Shown piece by piece: positions 56,703 through 62,585 of a stretch of DNA of 64,000 nt. Position 1 is the stretch's first letter; every line of letters begins with the position of its first letter. The translations under genes were made by a program, and so were the position numbers. The notes below the pieces were generated by a model. It did no database searches. It was given only the letters and a program-made list of their open reading frames with translations, and had not been told where the DNA came from. The stretch comes from Terrimonas sp. (GTDB taxonomy: Bacteria; Bacteroidota; Bacteroidia; Chitinophagales; Chitinophagaceae). The stretch spans positions 1 through 64,000 of the forward strand of contig NZ_QCZJ01000004.1 of the NCBI RefSeq assembly GCF_003075435.1, given 5' to 3'.

Positions 56703-57902
56703 CTATCCTGGCAAAGAATTAAGCATGCAGTACTTAATTCCGTCTGCGAGGTGCTCAATTTCTTCCCTGCTCCAGGTACAACGAATGGAAAATGAAATGA
56801 GGCGCCCTATTACTTGCTGTGATTTTGGCAATGCCAGGTTTTGATAATCCTGAGGTGTTCCTGTTATTGCTATAGGTAACCTGGCGGCAGTTTTCAACTG
56901 TTTGATATGGTTCCACTGGTTAATAAAATGATACATATTAATATACCAGTAATTGAAGCCGCTCAAACCGGCTTTATCAAACTGATCTGCTGTCGCTTTA
57001 GCTTTTGGGATATCTGGCAGCAATAGATTAAGAAATGTTGCCGAATCACCGTCGGGGTCAGGTAGTTTCGAAAAAGCAATATCAGGCAGGTCTGACAGCA
57101 GATTAGTTAGTAATGATTTGTTTATTCTGTTGCGCTGAATAATTTCCGGCACACGTCTTGTTTGTGCTGTTCCGATAGCTGCATGTAATTCGCTGATGCG
57201 GTAGTTAAACCCTATAACCGGATGTTGTTCCATGCCGCGGTTATTACCTTTATGATCATGCCCGTGATCACAGTAAGCATCTGCCAGTTTATAAATTTTT
57301 TCTTCGTTGGTTACTAATACACCCCCTTCGCCCGCAGTAGCTATTTTAAAGAAGTCGAAAGAATAGCAGCCTGCTTTTCCGAATAACCCTACTGATATGC
57401 CTTTGTATGATGCACCAAAAGCCTGACCTGCATCTTCAACCAGGATCAGGTTATGCTTTTGTATCAGTGGCATAATGCTGACCATATCAGCCATGCCTCC
57501 GCACATATGCACCAAACAAACTGCTTTGGTGCGGGGAGATAAAGCTTTTTCAATTCCTGCAGCACTAAGACAGAGTGTCTCATCTATTTCTGCAAAAACG
57601 GGCAATGCGCCGGCCAGTAAAACTGCTTCTATCGTTGCCACATAAGTAAAAGGTGGTACTATAACCTCATCTCCGGCTCCTATTCCACATGAAGCCAATG
57701 CTGCTGAAACTGCGGCAGAACCGCTGCTGACGGCATGGGCATAACGGGCGCCTGTTAAATTTTTAACCTCTGCTTCAAACGCTTTGGCTTTCCAGATACC
57801 TGCGCGCAATTGATCGTGGTTGTATCTGAACAGGATACCTGTACGCATCACATCATCAATTTCCTTTTGCTCTTCTTTACCAAACAATTCAGTTCCGGGC
57901 AT
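56703..57902 (-). CDS. kdnA: PLP-dependent aminotransferase, 8-amino-3,8-dideoxy-octulosonate transaminase-like
   Basis: In Shewanella, KdnA aminates the 8-keto group of oxidised Kdo to give 8-amino-Kdo. This 399-residue DegT/DnrJ/EryC1-family protein starts at the ATG at 57902 (MPGTELFGKEEQKEIDDVMR); the longer frame would overlap kdsB. It has SSGSAAVSAALAS (59-71), DEVIVPPFTYVAT (78-90), VEDAGQAFGA with Asp157 and YSFDFFKIATAGEGG with the PLP lysine Lys186. The MPGxELxGxEE start and FDFFK motif are as I recall for KdnA-type enzymes. It closes a six-gene operon containing a KdnB oxidase, which makes the assignment strong by context. Confidence 0.82.
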   Translation of the reverse strand: MPGTELFGKEEQKEIDDVMRTGILFRYNHDQLRAGIWKAKAFEAEVKNLTGARYAHAVSSGSAAVSAALASCGIGAGDEVIVPPFTYVATIEAVLLAGALPVFAEIDETLCLSAAGIEKALSPRTKAVCLVHMCGGMADMVSIMPLIQKHNLILVEDAGQAFGASYKGISVGLFGKAGCYSFDFFKIATAGEGGVLVTNEEKIYKLADAYCDHGHDHKGNNRGMEQHPVIGFNYRISELHAAIGTAQTRRVPEIIQRNRINKSLLTNLLSDLPDIAFSKLPDPDGDSATFLNLLLPDIPKAKATADQFDKAGLSGFNYWYINMYHFINQWNHIKQLKTAARLPIAITGTPQDYQNLALPKSQQVIGRLISFSIRCTWSREEIEHLADGIKYCMLNSLPG

Positions 57903-57969: not shown

Positions 57970-58710
57970 TTAATGTATGATGTTGTGTATTTTCTGCAGA
58001 TCCTCCGGTGTATCGATGCAGCAGCTATAATATCCGGTAACAATACATTTAATGCGTAGTCCGTTTTCCATCCACCTGAGCTGCTCAAGCGATTCGGCTT
58101 CTTCTAATGAAGATGCCGGCATCCGTGTGATTTTTGCGAGTATATCCTTTCGATAAGCATACATGCCTACATGACGATAATATGTATGTTGTGTATGCCA
58201 GCTTTGTATGTTAGCTCCTTTAATAAAAGGAATTACTGATCTGCTAAAGTACAAAGCATAGCCATTTGCATCTGTTACAACTTTTACTTCTTTGGTGTCG
58301 AAAAGAGTGTCGTTATCGTTTATGGGTGTTATTTGTGTTGCAAGTTCAATCATATCTGTTTCTTTTAGTAAACCGGCCAACTCATCTATTTGCTCCGGGT
58401 TTATAAATGGCTCATCACCCTGAATATTTATAATATAATTAAAACCCTCTCCTATTTTATCTGATGCTTCTTTACAGCGGTCGGTTCCGCTGAAATGATG
58501 CTCACCCGTCATTAAGACCTTACCTCCAAATGCTTTTATATGATCAAATATTCTTTGATCATCTGTTGCCGCCACTACATCATCCAGCAGCTTACTTTTC
58601 ATTGCCTGTTCGTATACACGCCGTATCATACTTTTACCCTTTATATCAATTAACGGCTTTCCGGGAAAACGGCTGCTTCCATATCGGGCAGGAATTACAC
58701 CAACTATCAT
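57970..58710 (-). CDS. kdsB: 3-deoxy-manno-octulosonate cytidylyltransferase
   Basis: Couples Kdo, or 8-amino-Kdo, to CMP for transfer to lipid A. The 246 residues match the family length. VIPARYGSSRFPGKPL (5-20) is the CTP-binding start, VVAATDDQRIFDHIKAFGG (45-63) and INIQGDEPFINPEQI (93-107) hold the metal-binding Asp, and RHVGMYAYRKDIL and SLEEAESLEQLRWMENG are the KdsB substrate region. The start overlaps the phosphatase gene by four bases (ATGA). In organisms with KdnA/KdnB the matching KdsB favours the amino sugar, so the product here is probably CMP-8-amino-Kdo (inference). Confidence 0.92.
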   Translation of the reverse strand: MIVGVIPARYGSSRFPGKPLIDIKGKSMIRRVYEQAMKSKLLDDVVAATDDQRIFDHIKAFGGKVLMTGEHHFSGTDRCKEASDKIGEGFNYIINIQGDEPFINPEQIDELAGLLKETDMIELATQITPINDNDTLFDTKEVKVVTDANGYALYFSRSVIPFIKGANIQSWHTQHTYYRHVGMYAYRKDILAKITRMPASSLEEAESLEQLRWMENGLRIKCIVTGYYSCCIDTPEDLQKIHNIIH

Positions 58711-59417
58711 TTGCCAACTATTGTCAGATTAATATGATTGTGATTTGTAGAAAAAAAATCTGTTGATATCTCGTTCCGCTGCTTTATATAGTGTTGGTAT
58801 GTTTCGGAAAACTCCGTCCTTTGCCGAATAGTTTGTTCAAAATTTCCGGATAACATCATAAAAATTTCTGAGGTTTCCCTAACTGCATAATTACCGCCAT
58901 CATGCTGAGTAATGTAATCTGCCAGATGAAATTTTCTGACAAACTGCAGCAGGAGCGGGTTGGCAGATCTGCCAACCATACATCTTACACCTGCTATCAT
59001 TGCAGCCGATAAATCAAGCACATCATCAAAAACAAATAATGTTTCCGATGGCAGCAAAGCAAATTTTTCGCATAGCCTTATCATTGCATCTTCCTTCCTG
59101 TATTCTTTGTAAAAAACCGAATGAAAATGCTCTCTTTTTGCAAAAGAAAATGCCAGGGGGTTATTTTCTCCTGTTATTATAGCCGTTACCGGCATTACAC
59201 CATATCGGAGAAAATAGCTGAACCGCATCATATTCACACCCATAGCATCTATTTCACTAAAGCTGCTTTGCCCCTCTATATCTTTTCTGCCGTCATTAAA
59301 AACACCATCCCAGTCAAATACAAATGCCTTCACATTTTGAATTTTGTGATTTAGTATTTTGTAATCGTCAATAACCGCGTGCTCAAAAGGTATGTCAGAG
59401 GTACTGTAAGTGTGCAT
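58707..59417 (-). CDS. KdsC-like HAD phosphatase (Kdo-8-phosphate phosphatase), extended
   Basis: Expected to remove phosphate from Kdo-8-phosphate. The HAD core starts at about 30 with FVFDWDGVFNDG (Asp35, Asp37; KdsC has DxDGVxTDG). It continues with EIDAMGVNMMRFSYFL, motif II ITGE (81-84), FVFDDVLDL (128-136) and the C-terminal HDGGNYAVRETSE, which parallels the GGxGAVRE tail of KdsC. At 236 residues it is about 50 longer than usual, with a 28-residue N-terminal extension and a polar C-terminal tail. The motif II-III region departs from classical KdsC, so the substrate may differ. It overlaps kdsB. Confidence 0.75.
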   Translation of the reverse strand: MHTYSTSDIPFEHAVIDDYKILNHKIQNVKAFVFDWDGVFNDGRKDIEGQSSFSEIDAMGVNMMRFSYFLRYGVMPVTAIITGENNPLAFSFAKREHFHSVFYKEYRKEDAMIRLCEKFALLPSETLFVFDDVLDLSAAMIAGVRCMVGRSANPLLLQFVRKFHLADYITQHDGGNYAVRETSEIFMMLSGNFEQTIRQRTEFSETYQHYIKQRNEISTDFFSTNHNHINLTIVGK

Positions 59418-59623: not shown

Positions 59624-60631
59624 CTACTCTATATCCTGTACGTCCAGCATACCTACAGGCTTGCCTTTATCGGTAACCATAATCGTATCAACATTGGTTT
59701 TTTTAAATATTGATACTGCATCATTAAGTAACATGTGAGCTTCAATGCTAACAGGAGGCCTAAATTCCAATTTGTTCAGCTTACATTCCAGAATGTCTGC
59801 TCCTCCGCATTGAAGATATCTTCTCAGGTCCCCATCCGTAAATACGCCGCTCACCTGCAGATCATCATTTACCACGATAATAGCACCAAAACCAAATTCG
59901 GTCATTTTCACTATGGCATCTTTTATATTAGTATCAGCGGACACAACAGGGTTAATTCCGTTAATAACGTCCATTACTTTTACCGTCATTAGCCTTGTAT
60001 CGCGCAAAAACTGTTCAGTACCCAGTGTGGTAAAATGATTGCTTGTAAGTAATTTCAACACTTTTAAGGGAACAGTTATAGTGTGAGCACCAATATTCAG
60101 CGCATTACGTACATGCTCAATATTACGTACGGAGCTGAACATGATCTTTGAATCAAAACCATATGCATGCACAGTTTCTACACACTGTTTTACAAACGCC
60201 AGTGCATCCTGCCCCTGATCCTGTAAGCGGCCAACTAAAGGACATACATAATTTGCACCTGCTTTCATGGCCATATAAGCCTGCTGCAACGTATATACCA
60301 GATGCACATTTACCAGCAACCCTTCATTGCGAAGTAATTTACAAGCTTTTATCCCTTCAATTGAAACAGGTATTTTAAAAACGGTTTTCGCAGGATCAAG
60401 ACCGAGGAGAAGTTGCCGTTTTGCCTCCTGCACAATTTCAGCAGCAGTATTACCTAATGCCTCTATTTGAAGTACGGGTACTATTTCCGATAGTTTCAAT
60501 ATCATGGCATCAATATCCATAATACCTTCTCTCTGCATAAAAGTAGGGGTTGTTGTAAGCCCGTCAAGAATACCTAAGGTAAAGCCTTCTTCAATTTCTT
60601 TTAGGTTCGCCGAATCAAGATATAATTCCAT
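59624..60631 (-). CDS. Transaldolase / fructose-6-phosphate aldolase-like domain fused to a CBS pair
   Basis: 335 residues. Residues 1-212 are a small transaldolase (TalC/FSA type): MELYLDSANLKEIEEGF (Asp6), the Schiff-base lysine Lys86 in VFKIPVS, NYVCPLVGRLQDQGQDA (127-143), MFSSVRN (164-170) and HTITVPLKVLKLL. The usual TTNPS loop reads TTTPT, so Thr28 replaces Asn. Residues 217-335 are two CBS motifs (VMDVINGINPVVSADTNIKD, FGFGAIIVVNDD, VSGVFTDGDLRRYL, and the second to GMLDVQDIE), closely like the tail of arabinose-5-phosphate isomerase KdsD. It lies between kdsA and the phosphatase gene. It may supply or regulate the arabinose-5-phosphate branch (inference). Confidence 0.85.
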   Translation of the reverse strand: MELYLDSANLKEIEEGFTLGILDGLTTTPTFMQREGIMDIDAMILKLSEIVPVLQIEALGNTAAEIVQEAKRQLLLGLDPAKTVFKIPVSIEGIKACKLLRNEGLLVNVHLVYTLQQAYMAMKAGANYVCPLVGRLQDQGQDALAFVKQCVETVHAYGFDSKIMFSSVRNIEHVRNALNIGAHTITVPLKVLKLLTSNHFTTLGTEQFLRDTRLMTVKVMDVINGINPVVSADTNIKDAIVKMTEFGFGAIIVVNDDLQVSGVFTDGDLRRYLQCGGADILECKLNKLEFRPPVSIEAHMLLNDAVSIFKKTNVDTIMVTDKGKPVGMLDVQDIE

Positions 60632-60647
60632 ATTGTAATTGATAATT

Positions 60648-61499
60648 TTATATTTTTTGCTTCTCTTTAATCCTGTATTTTAATTCAACCGCATGAAGCG
60701 CTATTAATGGTCTTAAAAATGATGCTAGTTCATTTACGGATAACTGGCTTGCTGCATCGCATAAGGCTTTATCCGGTTCGGGATGAACTTCAATAAATAC
60801 GCCGTCTACGCCGGAGGCAACACCAGCTCTGCCTAAAACGGGTAAAAATTCCCTTGCACCACCCTTGCTATCTGAACTCGGAATTCCATATTTACGTATG
60901 GCATGCGTAATATCGAATACAACCGGGTAGCCCATGCTTTTCATCCAATAGAAGCTTCGGGGATCAACCACCAGGTCATTGTAGCCCATAGTATATCCAC
61001 GTTCCGTAAGAATGATTTGATCATTCCCGGCATCAAGGCATTTTCCAACCGGATGTTTCATATTCTCCGGAGCTAAAAATTGCCCATGCTTGATATTGAT
61101 CACCTTACCGGTACTTGCTGCGGCTACCATCAGATCGGTTTGCATACACAGGTATGCAGGGATCTGCAGCACATCGCATACTTCAGCTACCGGTGCCGCC
61201 TGGCCAGGATAATGAATATCTGTAAGAAGCGGAAAACCGAATTGCTCTTTTATTTTCGAAAGCATTTGTATTCCTTTCAACAATCCCGGACCTCTGTAAT
61301 ACCTGAGACTGCTGCGGTTATCTTTCTGAAATGATGATTTGAAGATCACCGGGATTCCAAGTGTTTCGCTGACCTCTTTAAGTTTTTCCGCGGTTTTCAT
61401 CATTGTAACCTCATCTTCAATAACACAGGGGCCTGATATGAGAAACAACTGATCTTCCCCGCAAATAATATTTCCAACATTTATTTTATTCAGGCTCAT
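60648..61499 (-). CDS. kdsA: 3-deoxy-8-phosphooctulonate synthase
   Basis: Condenses phosphoenolpyruvate with arabinose-5-phosphate to Kdo-8-phosphate. The 283 residues are a TIM barrel of the DAHP/KdsA family: LISGPCVIED with Cys25, which marks the metal-dependent class, FKSSFQKDNRSSLRYYRGPG (about 53-72), LLTDIHYPGQAAPV and NIKHGQFLAPENM, where a His follows the Lys in place of the usual second Lys. DITHAIRKYG and FIEVHPEPDKALCDAASQL follow. It sits 3 bases after kdnB and 16 before the transaldolase-CBS gene, so it is firmly part of the operon. Confidence 0.93.
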   Translation of the reverse strand: MSLNKINVGNIICGEDQLFLISGPCVIEDEVTMMKTAEKLKEVSETLGIPVIFKSSFQKDNRSSLRYYRGPGLLKGIQMLSKIKEQFGFPLLTDIHYPGQAAPVAEVCDVLQIPAYLCMQTDLMVAAASTGKVINIKHGQFLAPENMKHPVGKCLDAGNDQIILTERGYTMGYNDLVVDPRSFYWMKSMGYPVVFDITHAIRKYGIPSSDSKGGAREFLPVLGRAGVASGVDGVFIEVHPEPDKALCDAASQLSVNELASFLRPLIALHAVELKYRIKEKQKI

Positions 61500-61502
61500 A
61501 TA

Positions 61503-62585
61503 CTAAAGTCTTTTATACAGCTCCTTAATTTTTTCTATGGTAATTTTTTTCTTCCAGTCAGGGCCAACAGCATGGTTCCACATATGAGATAATGCATAGG
61601 CAACTTTTGCCATTGCGGTAATGGTATCCTCTGTCCATTGCTTGCTTAAACCCTGAGGCAGGTTAATTTGGTGGCGGGCAAGCATTTGTTTCATTTCCCT
61701 TACTCCTTCCGGATAATAGTCCTCCAGGTGCTGAAATACCAAACAGTTGGCATAACAATGTTTTTCATGCAGAATTTTTGAGAGCCCGTAACTAAGGGCG
61801 TGGCAAATGCCAACTTCTGAATAGGTAAGACTCAATCCACCCATCATCGAAGCAACCATCAGCTTGTCATCATTCCCGGGTGTTTTTCCCGCATGCTGAT
61901 TGAGAAAAACATCCCGGCATAGCTGCAATGCCTGTTCTGCATAAGCATGACTATACGCATTATTCAGGTATCCGTTTTCACTTTCAATACAATGTATATA
62001 TGTGTCCATGCCCGTATAAAACCATTTATCAGGGGGTACTGATGCGGTGAGTTCAGGATCAAGTATAACCTGGTTAAACACAGTAGAGTCGCATTTCAGT
62101 CCTAGTTTCTTTTCCGGTCCCGTCAATACAGCGGTCATAGACACTTCTGCGCCGGTACCGGAAATGGTAGGTACGCCCACATGATAAATACCAGGATGTT
62201 TGATCAGGTTCAAACCCTGGTAGCGTGTGGATGAACCGGGATTGGTAAACATCAGCGATGCTGCTTTGGTAATATCCATAATGCTTCCGCCCCCTATGCC
62301 GACGATACCGGAAGGAAGACCAATGGAGCCAAGTATTTCGTCGCGAATATTATCAACCTGTGCTGTGGTAGGTTCATGTGGATCAACATTTATTAACTTT
62401 ACAACATCACCTTTTTCAGCAGGAATACGATAGAATAAATCTTTGTCAGCGAAATACTGATCCACTATAAATAAAAAGAAGTTATTATTAAGCAAACGCT
62501 TTTGCGTGATAATAGAGGACAATCCCTTGAAACTGCCCCGTCCGAAAGCAATCCGGTCGGCATTTTTAAAGTTTTTTACATCCAT
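61503..62585 (-). CDS. kdnB: Iron-containing alcohol dehydrogenase, Kdo 8-oxidase-like
   Basis: In Shewanella, KdnB oxidises C8 of Kdo to the aldehyde that KdnA then aminates. This 360-residue protein is a group III (Fe) alcohol dehydrogenase: GIGGGSIMDITKAAS (96-110) binds NAD, GVPTISGTGAEVSMTAVLTG (137-156) is the hinge. Metal ligands Asp194, His198, His262 and His276 align in spacing with the Fe site of FucO-type enzymes. RIAFGRGSFKGL at the start and KNADR are as in KdnB-type proteins. It is first of the six-gene operon; no TAnnTTTG box is clear in the 40 bases before it. Confidence 0.82.
   Translation of the reverse strand: MDVKNFKNADRIAFGRGSFKGLSSIITQKRLLNNNFFLFIVDQYFADKDLFYRIPAEKGDVVKLINVDPHEPTTAQVDNIRDEILGSIGLPSGIVGIGGGSIMDITKAASLMFTNPGSSTRYQGLNLIKHPGIYHVGVPTISGTGAEVSMTAVLTGPEKKLGLKCDSTVFNQVILDPELTASVPPDKWFYTGMDTYIHCIESENGYLNNAYSHAYAEQALQLCRDVFLNQHAGKTPGNDDKLMVASMMGGLSLTYSEVGICHALSYGLSKILHEKHCYANCLVFQHLEDYYPEGVREMKQMLARHQINLPQGLSKQWTEDTITAMAKVAYALSHMWNHAVGPDWKKKITIEKIKELYKRL

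Follow-up and report, generated by a model that had tools for sequence, protein, structure and literature searches.

A transaldolase-CBS fusion protein as a probable replacement for the arabinose-5-phosphate isomerase KdsD in Kdo synthesis of Bacteroidota

Introduction

A Kdo operon of Terrimonas sp. raises the question of why a transaldolase-CBS fusion (TAL-CBS) stands beside the KDO8P synthase gene kdsA, where the SIS-CBS-CBS arabinose-5-phosphate (A5P) isomerase KdsD might be expected, and what such a protein would deliver to the synthase. According to PMC10448790, the committed part of Kdo synthesis begins with A5P isomerases, which are being considered as antimicrobial targets. The window analyzed here is the whole 64,000-nucleotide stretch of DNA that carries this operon. 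Among the titles and abstract openings listed in searches of the open-access PMC literature, none concerned a transaldolase-CBS fusion in Kdo synthesis.

Results

Domain Composition and Predicted Fold of the Fusion

The fusion is encoded at positions 59624 to 60631 on the minus strand, and its 335 aa product combines a barrel (residues 1–213, with Lys86 as the putative Schiff-base residue, in the motif VFKIPV) with a CBS pair of the KdsD/KpsF type (residues ~214–335). Pfam confirmed this architecture, which had been read from the letters alone: PF00923 (TAL_FSA) matched residues 3–201 (E 7.4e-34, 117.8 bits vs. a gathering cut-off of 27), and CBS matched in two stretches (E 6.5e-16, above the curated cut-off). 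The top NCBIfam match of the CBS part was KpsF/KdsD/GutQ (TIGR00393), which aligned residues 215–329 to model positions 153–267 with an E of 2e-17; the score of 63.6 bits is far below the whole-protein cut-off of 203.7 because the SIS part is missing. The best PDB chains for the CBS part (4o9k, 3k2v, and 3fna) are all named A5P isomerases, which bears out the resemblance to the KdsD tail that had been noted at the outset. No SIS domain was matched in the protein at E 0.001 with Pfam or NCBIfam. Both domains were present in all 52 family members scanned from the 86 aligned, and chance or misassembly as the source of the fusion was ruled out by full-length fusions of 60–80% identity in other genomes.

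An AlphaFold2 model built with the 52 family members as input had a mean pLDDT of 91 and a pTM of 0.67, values at which the single predicted domains are good and their relative placement is uncertain. Structure comparison against the PDB, which covered mainly residues 1–219, placed the modeled barrel next to the transaldolases of B. subtilis and T. acidophilum (3r8r and 3s0c; Z 29.1, rmsd 1.5–1.6 over 211–215 residues), and identity to the transaldolases of T. acidophilum, B. subtilis, and T. maritima was 32–36% at a Z of about 29. Among the structure matches listed was 3upb, with a title that begins “Transaldolase from Francisella tularensis in Covalent Complex with Arabinose-5-P”.

A Conserved Schiff-Base Site with a Changed Donor Pocket

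Asp6, Glu57, Lys86, Asn108, Arg135, Ser167, and Arg169 were invariant in 85 of 85 TAL-CBS proteins, and these residues and the fold are common to the PF00923 transaldolases of T. acidophilum, B. subtilis, and T. maritima, from which TAL-CBS differs by its added CBS pair and its Kdo operon. We take the lysine with its Asp/Glu partners to be the Schiff-base machinery of the TAL/FSA superfamily, and Arg135, Ser167, and Arg169 to bind phosphate. Five other positions were fixed in all 85 proteins as Thr28, His110, Cys130, Leu132, and Gln137, and are N, T, S, F, and D in each of the 18 stand-alone homologues of the phylum that were kept (5 of 23 were dropped as mispicked ORFs, and Asp6, Lys86, and Pro88 were required, such that agreement at positions 6 and 86 is by construction). 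Positions 28, 110, 130, and 132 presumably correspond to N35, T156, S176, and F178 of TalB, and the switched residues are presumably those that bind the dihydroxyacetone intermediate. Mutants of TalB N35, T156, and S176 occur among the PDB structure matches.

The residues of transaldolase EC 2.2.1.2 at these positions, Asn28, Thr110, Ser130, and Phe132, which the three PF00923 transaldolases carry, are thus replaced by Thr, His, Cys, and Leu in TAL-CBS. FsaA, a member of the same superfamily, differs as well: its Gln59 and Tyr131 (taken from PDB titles) stand against Glu57 and Leu132, its chains are about 220 aa long and lack the CBS pair, and its family model TIGR00875 scored TAL-CBS at 162.7 bits vs. 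a cut-off of 245.95. The original prediction of a TalC/FSA-type barrel therefore held for PF00923 membership and Lys86, but not for the FSA type, as Glu57 is the residue of transaldolases and Leu132 that of neither type. Since the Schiff-base machinery and the phosphate grip are kept and the donor pocket is remade, the residues point to an aldolase with a new specificity, and TAL-CBS appears more likely to be such a working enzyme than a dead or ordinary transaldolase. An ordinary housekeeping transaldolase was rejected on the five fixed substitutions and because the window genome encodes other homologues of transaldolase (three matches at E 1e-10, TAL-CBS itself counted).

The Kdo Operon and a Second Gene Set in the Same Genome

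On the minus strand, the genes are ordered kdnB, kdsA2, TAL-CBS, HAD, kdsB2, and kdnA, separated by 3, 16, 206, −4, and 67 bp. TAL-CBS does lie between kdsA, 16 bp upstream, and a phosphatase gene, 206 bp downstream, as had been described. The kdsA2 gene (60648–61499, minus) encodes a KDO8P synthase of a distinct clade (TIGR01362, 338.7 bits vs. a cut-off of 314), and kdsB2 (57970–58710, minus) encodes a Kdo cytidylyltransferase (TIGR00466, 225.8 vs. 155.2). The HAD phosphatase (58707–59417, minus) resembles KdsC only distantly, with matches in NCBIfam (E 6.3e-13, 48.8 bits vs. a cut-off of 208) and the PDB (4um5, E 4.7e-11) and no Pfam match at E 0.001; it is likely the KDO8P phosphatase of the set. 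The kdnB-like gene (61503–62585, minus) encodes an iron-type alcohol dehydrogenase of the Kdo 8-oxidase family, whose top PDB matches were 3rf7 (E 3.4e-115) and the Kdo 8-oxidase 5k8c (E 2.5e-114), with the next at 2.9e-20. The kdnA-like aminotransferase (56703–57902, minus) belongs to the Kdo8N transaminase family, with 5k8b as its top PDB match (E 2.6e-129) and the next at 9.6e-48. By best-hit homology, both members of the Kdo8N synthesis pair are present, and in gene content the operon resembles a Kdo set that includes the genes for Kdo8N. In Shewanella, KdnB catalyzes the first step of Kdo8N synthesis, according to an excerpt of PMC5125639. A consensus scan of the operon for promoters and terminators gave counts near the shuffled expectation.

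The operon encodes no SIS-domain isomerase, in line with the initial reading; one sits elsewhere in the genome, on contig C6, as a full KdsD of 320 aa with the SIS-CBS-CBS layout. The window genome also has a second KdsA on contig C24 (46% identical to KdsA2) and a second KdsB on contig C16 (38%). By itself, this genome would not reveal the function of TAL-CBS.

KdsA2 Has an Altered A5P Site

KdsA2 differs from KdsA1 by the fixed switches A60D, F116Y, R119M, K138H, Q202R, and P204Y. Asp60, Met119, His138, Arg202, and Tyr204 were found in 56 of 56 KdsA2 sequences (53 of the 56 locus ORFs, at least 270 aa long, plus those of G190, G249, and the window); Ala60, Arg119, Lys138, and Gln202 were found in 18 of 18 KdsA1, and the three PDB KdsA compared also have A, R, and Q at 60, 119, and 202. 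The first switch turns the KANRSS motif of KDO8P synthase into KDNRSS, and KdsA2 lacks the conserved Arg and Gln as well. We take KANRSS, the Arg, and the Gln to belong to the A5P site, with several of the switches at or near it, and the Arg at position 119 to bind the A5P phosphate from the neighboring subunit. Judging from these residues, KdsA2 may hold the phosphate in another way, or its substrate may not be quite A5P. The same switches occur in G249, a genome without TAL-CBS, and therefore do not track TAL-CBS itself. In the excerpts of PMC6650799 and PMC3052366, no role of the A5P-site Arg in KdsA was found.

Distribution and Gene Linkage

Full-length fusions were found in 6 of 395 genomes of the phylum, the window included, at 60–100% identity; the other matches listed were confined to the barrel (up to residue 228) and reached at most 39% identity. 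No plasmid matched at E 1e-40. A scan of genome contigs, from which the best 80 of 97 relatives were kept as loci, yielded matches across residues 1–334 or 1–335 in all 80, with Bacteroidota groups named in 78 of the locus titles and other titles on the remaining two. Adding five others gave the 85 loci used here, two of which lie on one contig, that of G091, and which hold 81 distinct proteins. Many of the locus contigs are truncated; by neighbor clusters, kdsA2 was found in 56 of the 85 loci, kdnA in 39, kdnB in 39, and kdsB2 in 33, and all six genes together in 18. The most frequent partner was the distantly KdsC-like HAD gene (59 of 85). Where present, kdsA2 was always on the strand of TAL-CBS (56 of 56), at a distance of less than 400 bp in 39 loci and of 599 to 6042 bp in 17.

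In nine of the 85 loci, the gene adjoining kdnA, or one ORF away from it, is from one protein family; the two of these nine that were profiled are Kdo transferases, scoring 148–156 bits for PF04413 (cut-off 23.9) and below the NCBIfam equivalog cut-offs. No transketolase adjoined TAL-CBS among the 25 neighbor families inspected by eye. A pair of 660 aa proteins near TAL-CBS in Runella appeared OmpA/TPR-like by eye. Another transaldolase fusion of the phylum was seen in G030 (C1:144671–145348), where a transaldolase barrel lies within a 735 aa open frame.

The association also extends beyond linkage. KdsA of the KdsA2 type (E ≤ 1e-120, at least 71% identity) occurred in 7 of the 395 genomes, and all six TAL-CBS genomes were among them; in G190, kdsA2, TAL-CBS, and kdnB are on three separate contigs, yet all are present. 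Of 21 genomes searched for kdnB, 19 have the gene, the two in which it was not found being G292 and G397, and the pair of KdsA2 and TAL-CBS is therefore independent of Kdo8N.

TAL-CBS and KdsD Exclude Each Other

Using TIGR01362 (E ≤ 1e-60) for KdsA and TIGR00393 (E ≤ 1e-24) for KpsF/KdsD, with at most six candidates scored per genome, KdsA was called in 288 and KpsF/KdsD in 284 of the 395 genomes (278 above the curated cut-off), and six genomes had KdsD and no KdsA. A KdsD-type isomerase was present in 277 of 282 KdsA-positive genomes without TAL-CBS vs. one of six with it, the one being the window genome (Fisher p 9e-8, with shared ancestry not corrected). The pattern repeated within families: KdsD was present in 11/11 KdsA-positive genomes without TAL-CBS vs. 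1/3 with it in f1, 7/7 vs. 0/1 in f8, 2/2 vs. 0/1 in f10, and 22/22 vs. 0/1 in f17. Ten genomes carried KdsA and no KdsD, five of them (in four families) with TAL-CBS and five without. The latter, with completeness values of 100, 100, 96, 91, and 66%, possibly reflect another A5P source, gaps, or unscored candidates.

A closer look was taken at 34 genomes, namely the seven sampled ones that have KdsA2 and a further 27 drawn from the 80 loci; the 27 were picked for spread, some without a linked kdsA2, at a point when their KdsD status was not known, and they carry no completeness figure. Of the 33 with TAL-CBS, 30 had no SIS-CBS isomerase, and KdsA2 was the sole KdsA found in them; apart from a few weak matches to part of the SIS domain, TIGR00393 matched in them only the CBS part of TAL-CBS or of other proteins. 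Gaps in metagenome-assembled genomes (MAGs) are an unlikely general cause of the missing KdsD, as the 30 include four strain records that are not labeled MAG in their titles (Runella defluvii, Runella limosa, Siphonobacter sp. SORGH_AS_0500, and Chitinophagaceae bacterium IBVUCB1). The three exceptions were the window genome, Chryseolinea serpens, and G420. A second, ordinary KdsA was found only in the first two, and KdsA1 and full-length KdsD therefore occur together there. In G420, a divergent SIS-CBS-like protein (contig C48; 193 bits, positions 1–222) has a CBS region that looks eroded by eye, and is perhaps a KdsD on its way out. The original prediction that the fusion stands in the place of KdsD is thus strongly supported across genomes, by the exclusion, the co-occurrence with KdsA2, and the exchange described below, but not by the window genome alone, which has KdsD; a SIS-CBS isomerase elsewhere in the genome, which together with ordinary transaldolase kinetics would have spoken against it, is present there and was not found in the 30.

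No SIS-only A5P isomerase was recognized among the best matches listed for PF01380 and TIGR00393 over the 34 genomes. Besides SIS-CBS proteins, TIGR00393 gave partial SIS matches below 25 bits in six genomes, including contig C32 of the window genome. The PF01380 proteins were about 615, about 270, about 195 (partial), and 330–370 aa long, with one of 413 aa in Chryseolinea serpens and one of 222 aa in another genome; by length, we take them to be GlmS (about 615 aa) and MurQ-, GmhA-, and PGI/PMI-like proteins. By eye, a protein of G385 (C131) appeared to be a regulator of the RpiR type and one of G405 (C67) to be GmhA-like. A5P in the TAL-CBS genomes may also come from an isomerase that is unrelated or that has a side activity.

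An Exchange between Sister Genomes

The genomes G249 and G190 allow the two proteins to be compared beside orthologous synthases. One contig of G249 carries kdnA-kdnB-kdsA2-HAD-kdsB2, with products 67, 69, 74, 43, and 54% identical to those of the window. Between kdsA2 and HAD, which are 91 bp apart, there is no ORF of at least 140 aa on that strand. G249 has no TAL-CBS (its single match is a barrel at 1–215) and no further KdsA at E 1e-30, and a full KdsD is encoded elsewhere in the genome. The KdsA2 proteins of G249 and G190 are sisters (support 0.943), and G190 has TAL-CBS and lacks KdsD. Because orthologous KdsA2 proteins accompany KdsD in one genome and TAL-CBS in the other, this single case speaks for one substrate being supplied by both, which would be A5P.

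The CBS Pair

The CBS pairs of TAL-CBS and KdsD have a TDGDLRR region in common. In TAL-CBS, the T, D, and first R are found in 85 of 85 proteins, and the G, second D, and second R occur in 83, 74, and 79 of them; 16 of 16 KdsD have every one of these residues. The CBS pair of the window protein matched all 16 KdsD (23–41% identity) and three of four other CBS proteins, a small set in which one other CBS protein outranked one KdsD. We assume that the CBS pair of KdsD binds CMP-Kdo.

Discussion

That TAL-CBS replaces KdsD is well supported by the distribution of the two proteins; an aldol mechanism with A5P as product is the leading hypothesis. We consider it probable that TAL-CBS is a dedicated Schiff-base aldolase of the Kdo pathway, regulated through its CBS pair and most likely giving A5P to KdsA2. 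To the wider claim, that many Bacteroidota have a second natural A5P source for Kdo, in which a Schiff-base aldolase carries the displaced isomerase's regulatory tail and serves a co-adapted KdsA in an LPS/Kdo8N pathway, we give an even chance.

The barrel would form or break a C–C bond through a Schiff base at Lys86, and the resulting aldose phosphate, most likely D-arabinose-5-phosphate, would be passed to the neighboring KdsA2. Two routes can be drawn. Glyceraldehyde-3-phosphate and glycolaldehyde could be joined to A5P, a reaction that would suit the remade donor pocket and would need a natural supply of glycolaldehyde, which counts against it. Alternatively, an octulose-8-phosphate made by transketolase could be cleaved between C3 and C4 to A5P and a dihydroxyacetone unit (by our own carbon mapping); this would draw on central metabolites only, but it would keep a dihydroxyacetone intermediate whose contact residues have changed. 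FsaA is named an arabinose-5-phosphate aldolase that joins glycolaldehyde and glyceraldehyde-3-phosphate to A5P in an excerpt of PMC9947464. A passage on aldolase products in PMC5854111 is consistent with the octulose route, and also cites a proposal that the ido form arises from R5P. The same paper offers a precedent in LmbR of lincomycin synthesis, a putative transaldolase whose substrates are C5/C8 sugar phosphates. LmbR belongs to antibiotic synthesis and differs from TAL-CBS in its reaction, in which R5P is turned into an octulose and F6P or S7P serves as the donor. We know of no CBS domain or KdsA partner for LmbR. The KdsD-type CBS pair would make TAL-CBS subject to feedback, with CMP-Kdo or CMP-Kdo8N as the probable ligand.

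Several observations count against our preferred reading of TAL-CBS, namely the changes in the KdsA2 site, the KdsD and second KdsA of the window genome, the divergent protein of G420, and the five genomes that lack both KdsD and TAL-CBS. KdsA2 might instead use a different aldose phosphate made by TAL-CBS, with the operon building a ulosonic acid that resembles Kdo and takes its place in lipopolysaccharide. The fixed switches near the A5P site, a phosphatase far from KdsC, and the parallel switch of the TAL donor pocket would all fit this, but we hold it to be unlikely: G249 pairs a KdsA2 having the same switches with KdsD and has no TAL-CBS, KdsB2 scores above the TIGR00466 cut-off for Kdo, KdnA and KdnB are nearest to enzymes named for Kdo, and 9 of 85 loci have a gene for a Kdo transferase close by.

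The one-for-one exchange with an isomerase could also mean that the transaldolase barrel has itself become a ketol isomerase, converting Ru5P directly to A5P with the new and invariant His110 as base, a reaction for which no unusual donor is required. The invariance of Lys86 with Asp6 and Glu57 in 85 of 85 proteins speaks against this, as a Schiff base at C2 would, on chemical grounds, be of no help to a C1–C2 ketol shift, and we regard a ketol isomerase as quite improbable. Slighter still is the chance that the operon simply houses TAL-CBS as an ordinary transaldolase, with A5P arising through a side activity of another isomerase such as a GmhA-like protein. Its close fold match to 3r8r and 3s0c and the SIS proteins of GmhA length in these genomes are compatible with this; the five fixed substitutions, the other transaldolase homologues of the window genome, and the lack of KdsD in five of the six sampled TAL-CBS genomes are not readily so. 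A dedicated aldolase that replaces KdsD stays our preferred reading.

Compared with KdsD/KpsF/GutQ, TAL-CBS is alike in the type of its CBS pair and in its place in Kdo synthesis, and the two are exclusive in distribution; the SIS domain of the isomerases is a transaldolase-fold barrel in TAL-CBS, for which aldol chemistry would be expected from the conserved residues rather than ketol isomerization. Both KdnA and KdnB of Shewanella oneidensis have homologues in the TAL-CBS operon. The Kdn genes are known from Shewanella, whereas the Bacteroidota operon joins kdnA and kdnB with kdsA, kdsB, the phosphatase, and TAL-CBS.

If the proposed function is true, a different enzyme class at the A5P step would explain the genomes with KdsA and without KdsD in whole groups of Bacteroidota, and TAL-CBS would be a natural aldolase specialized for an aldose phosphate. 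It would also present a clean case of one step in a pathway keeping its regulatory module through an exchange of the catalytic domain. The operon further suggests that Kdo8N-type LPS occurs outside Shewanella.
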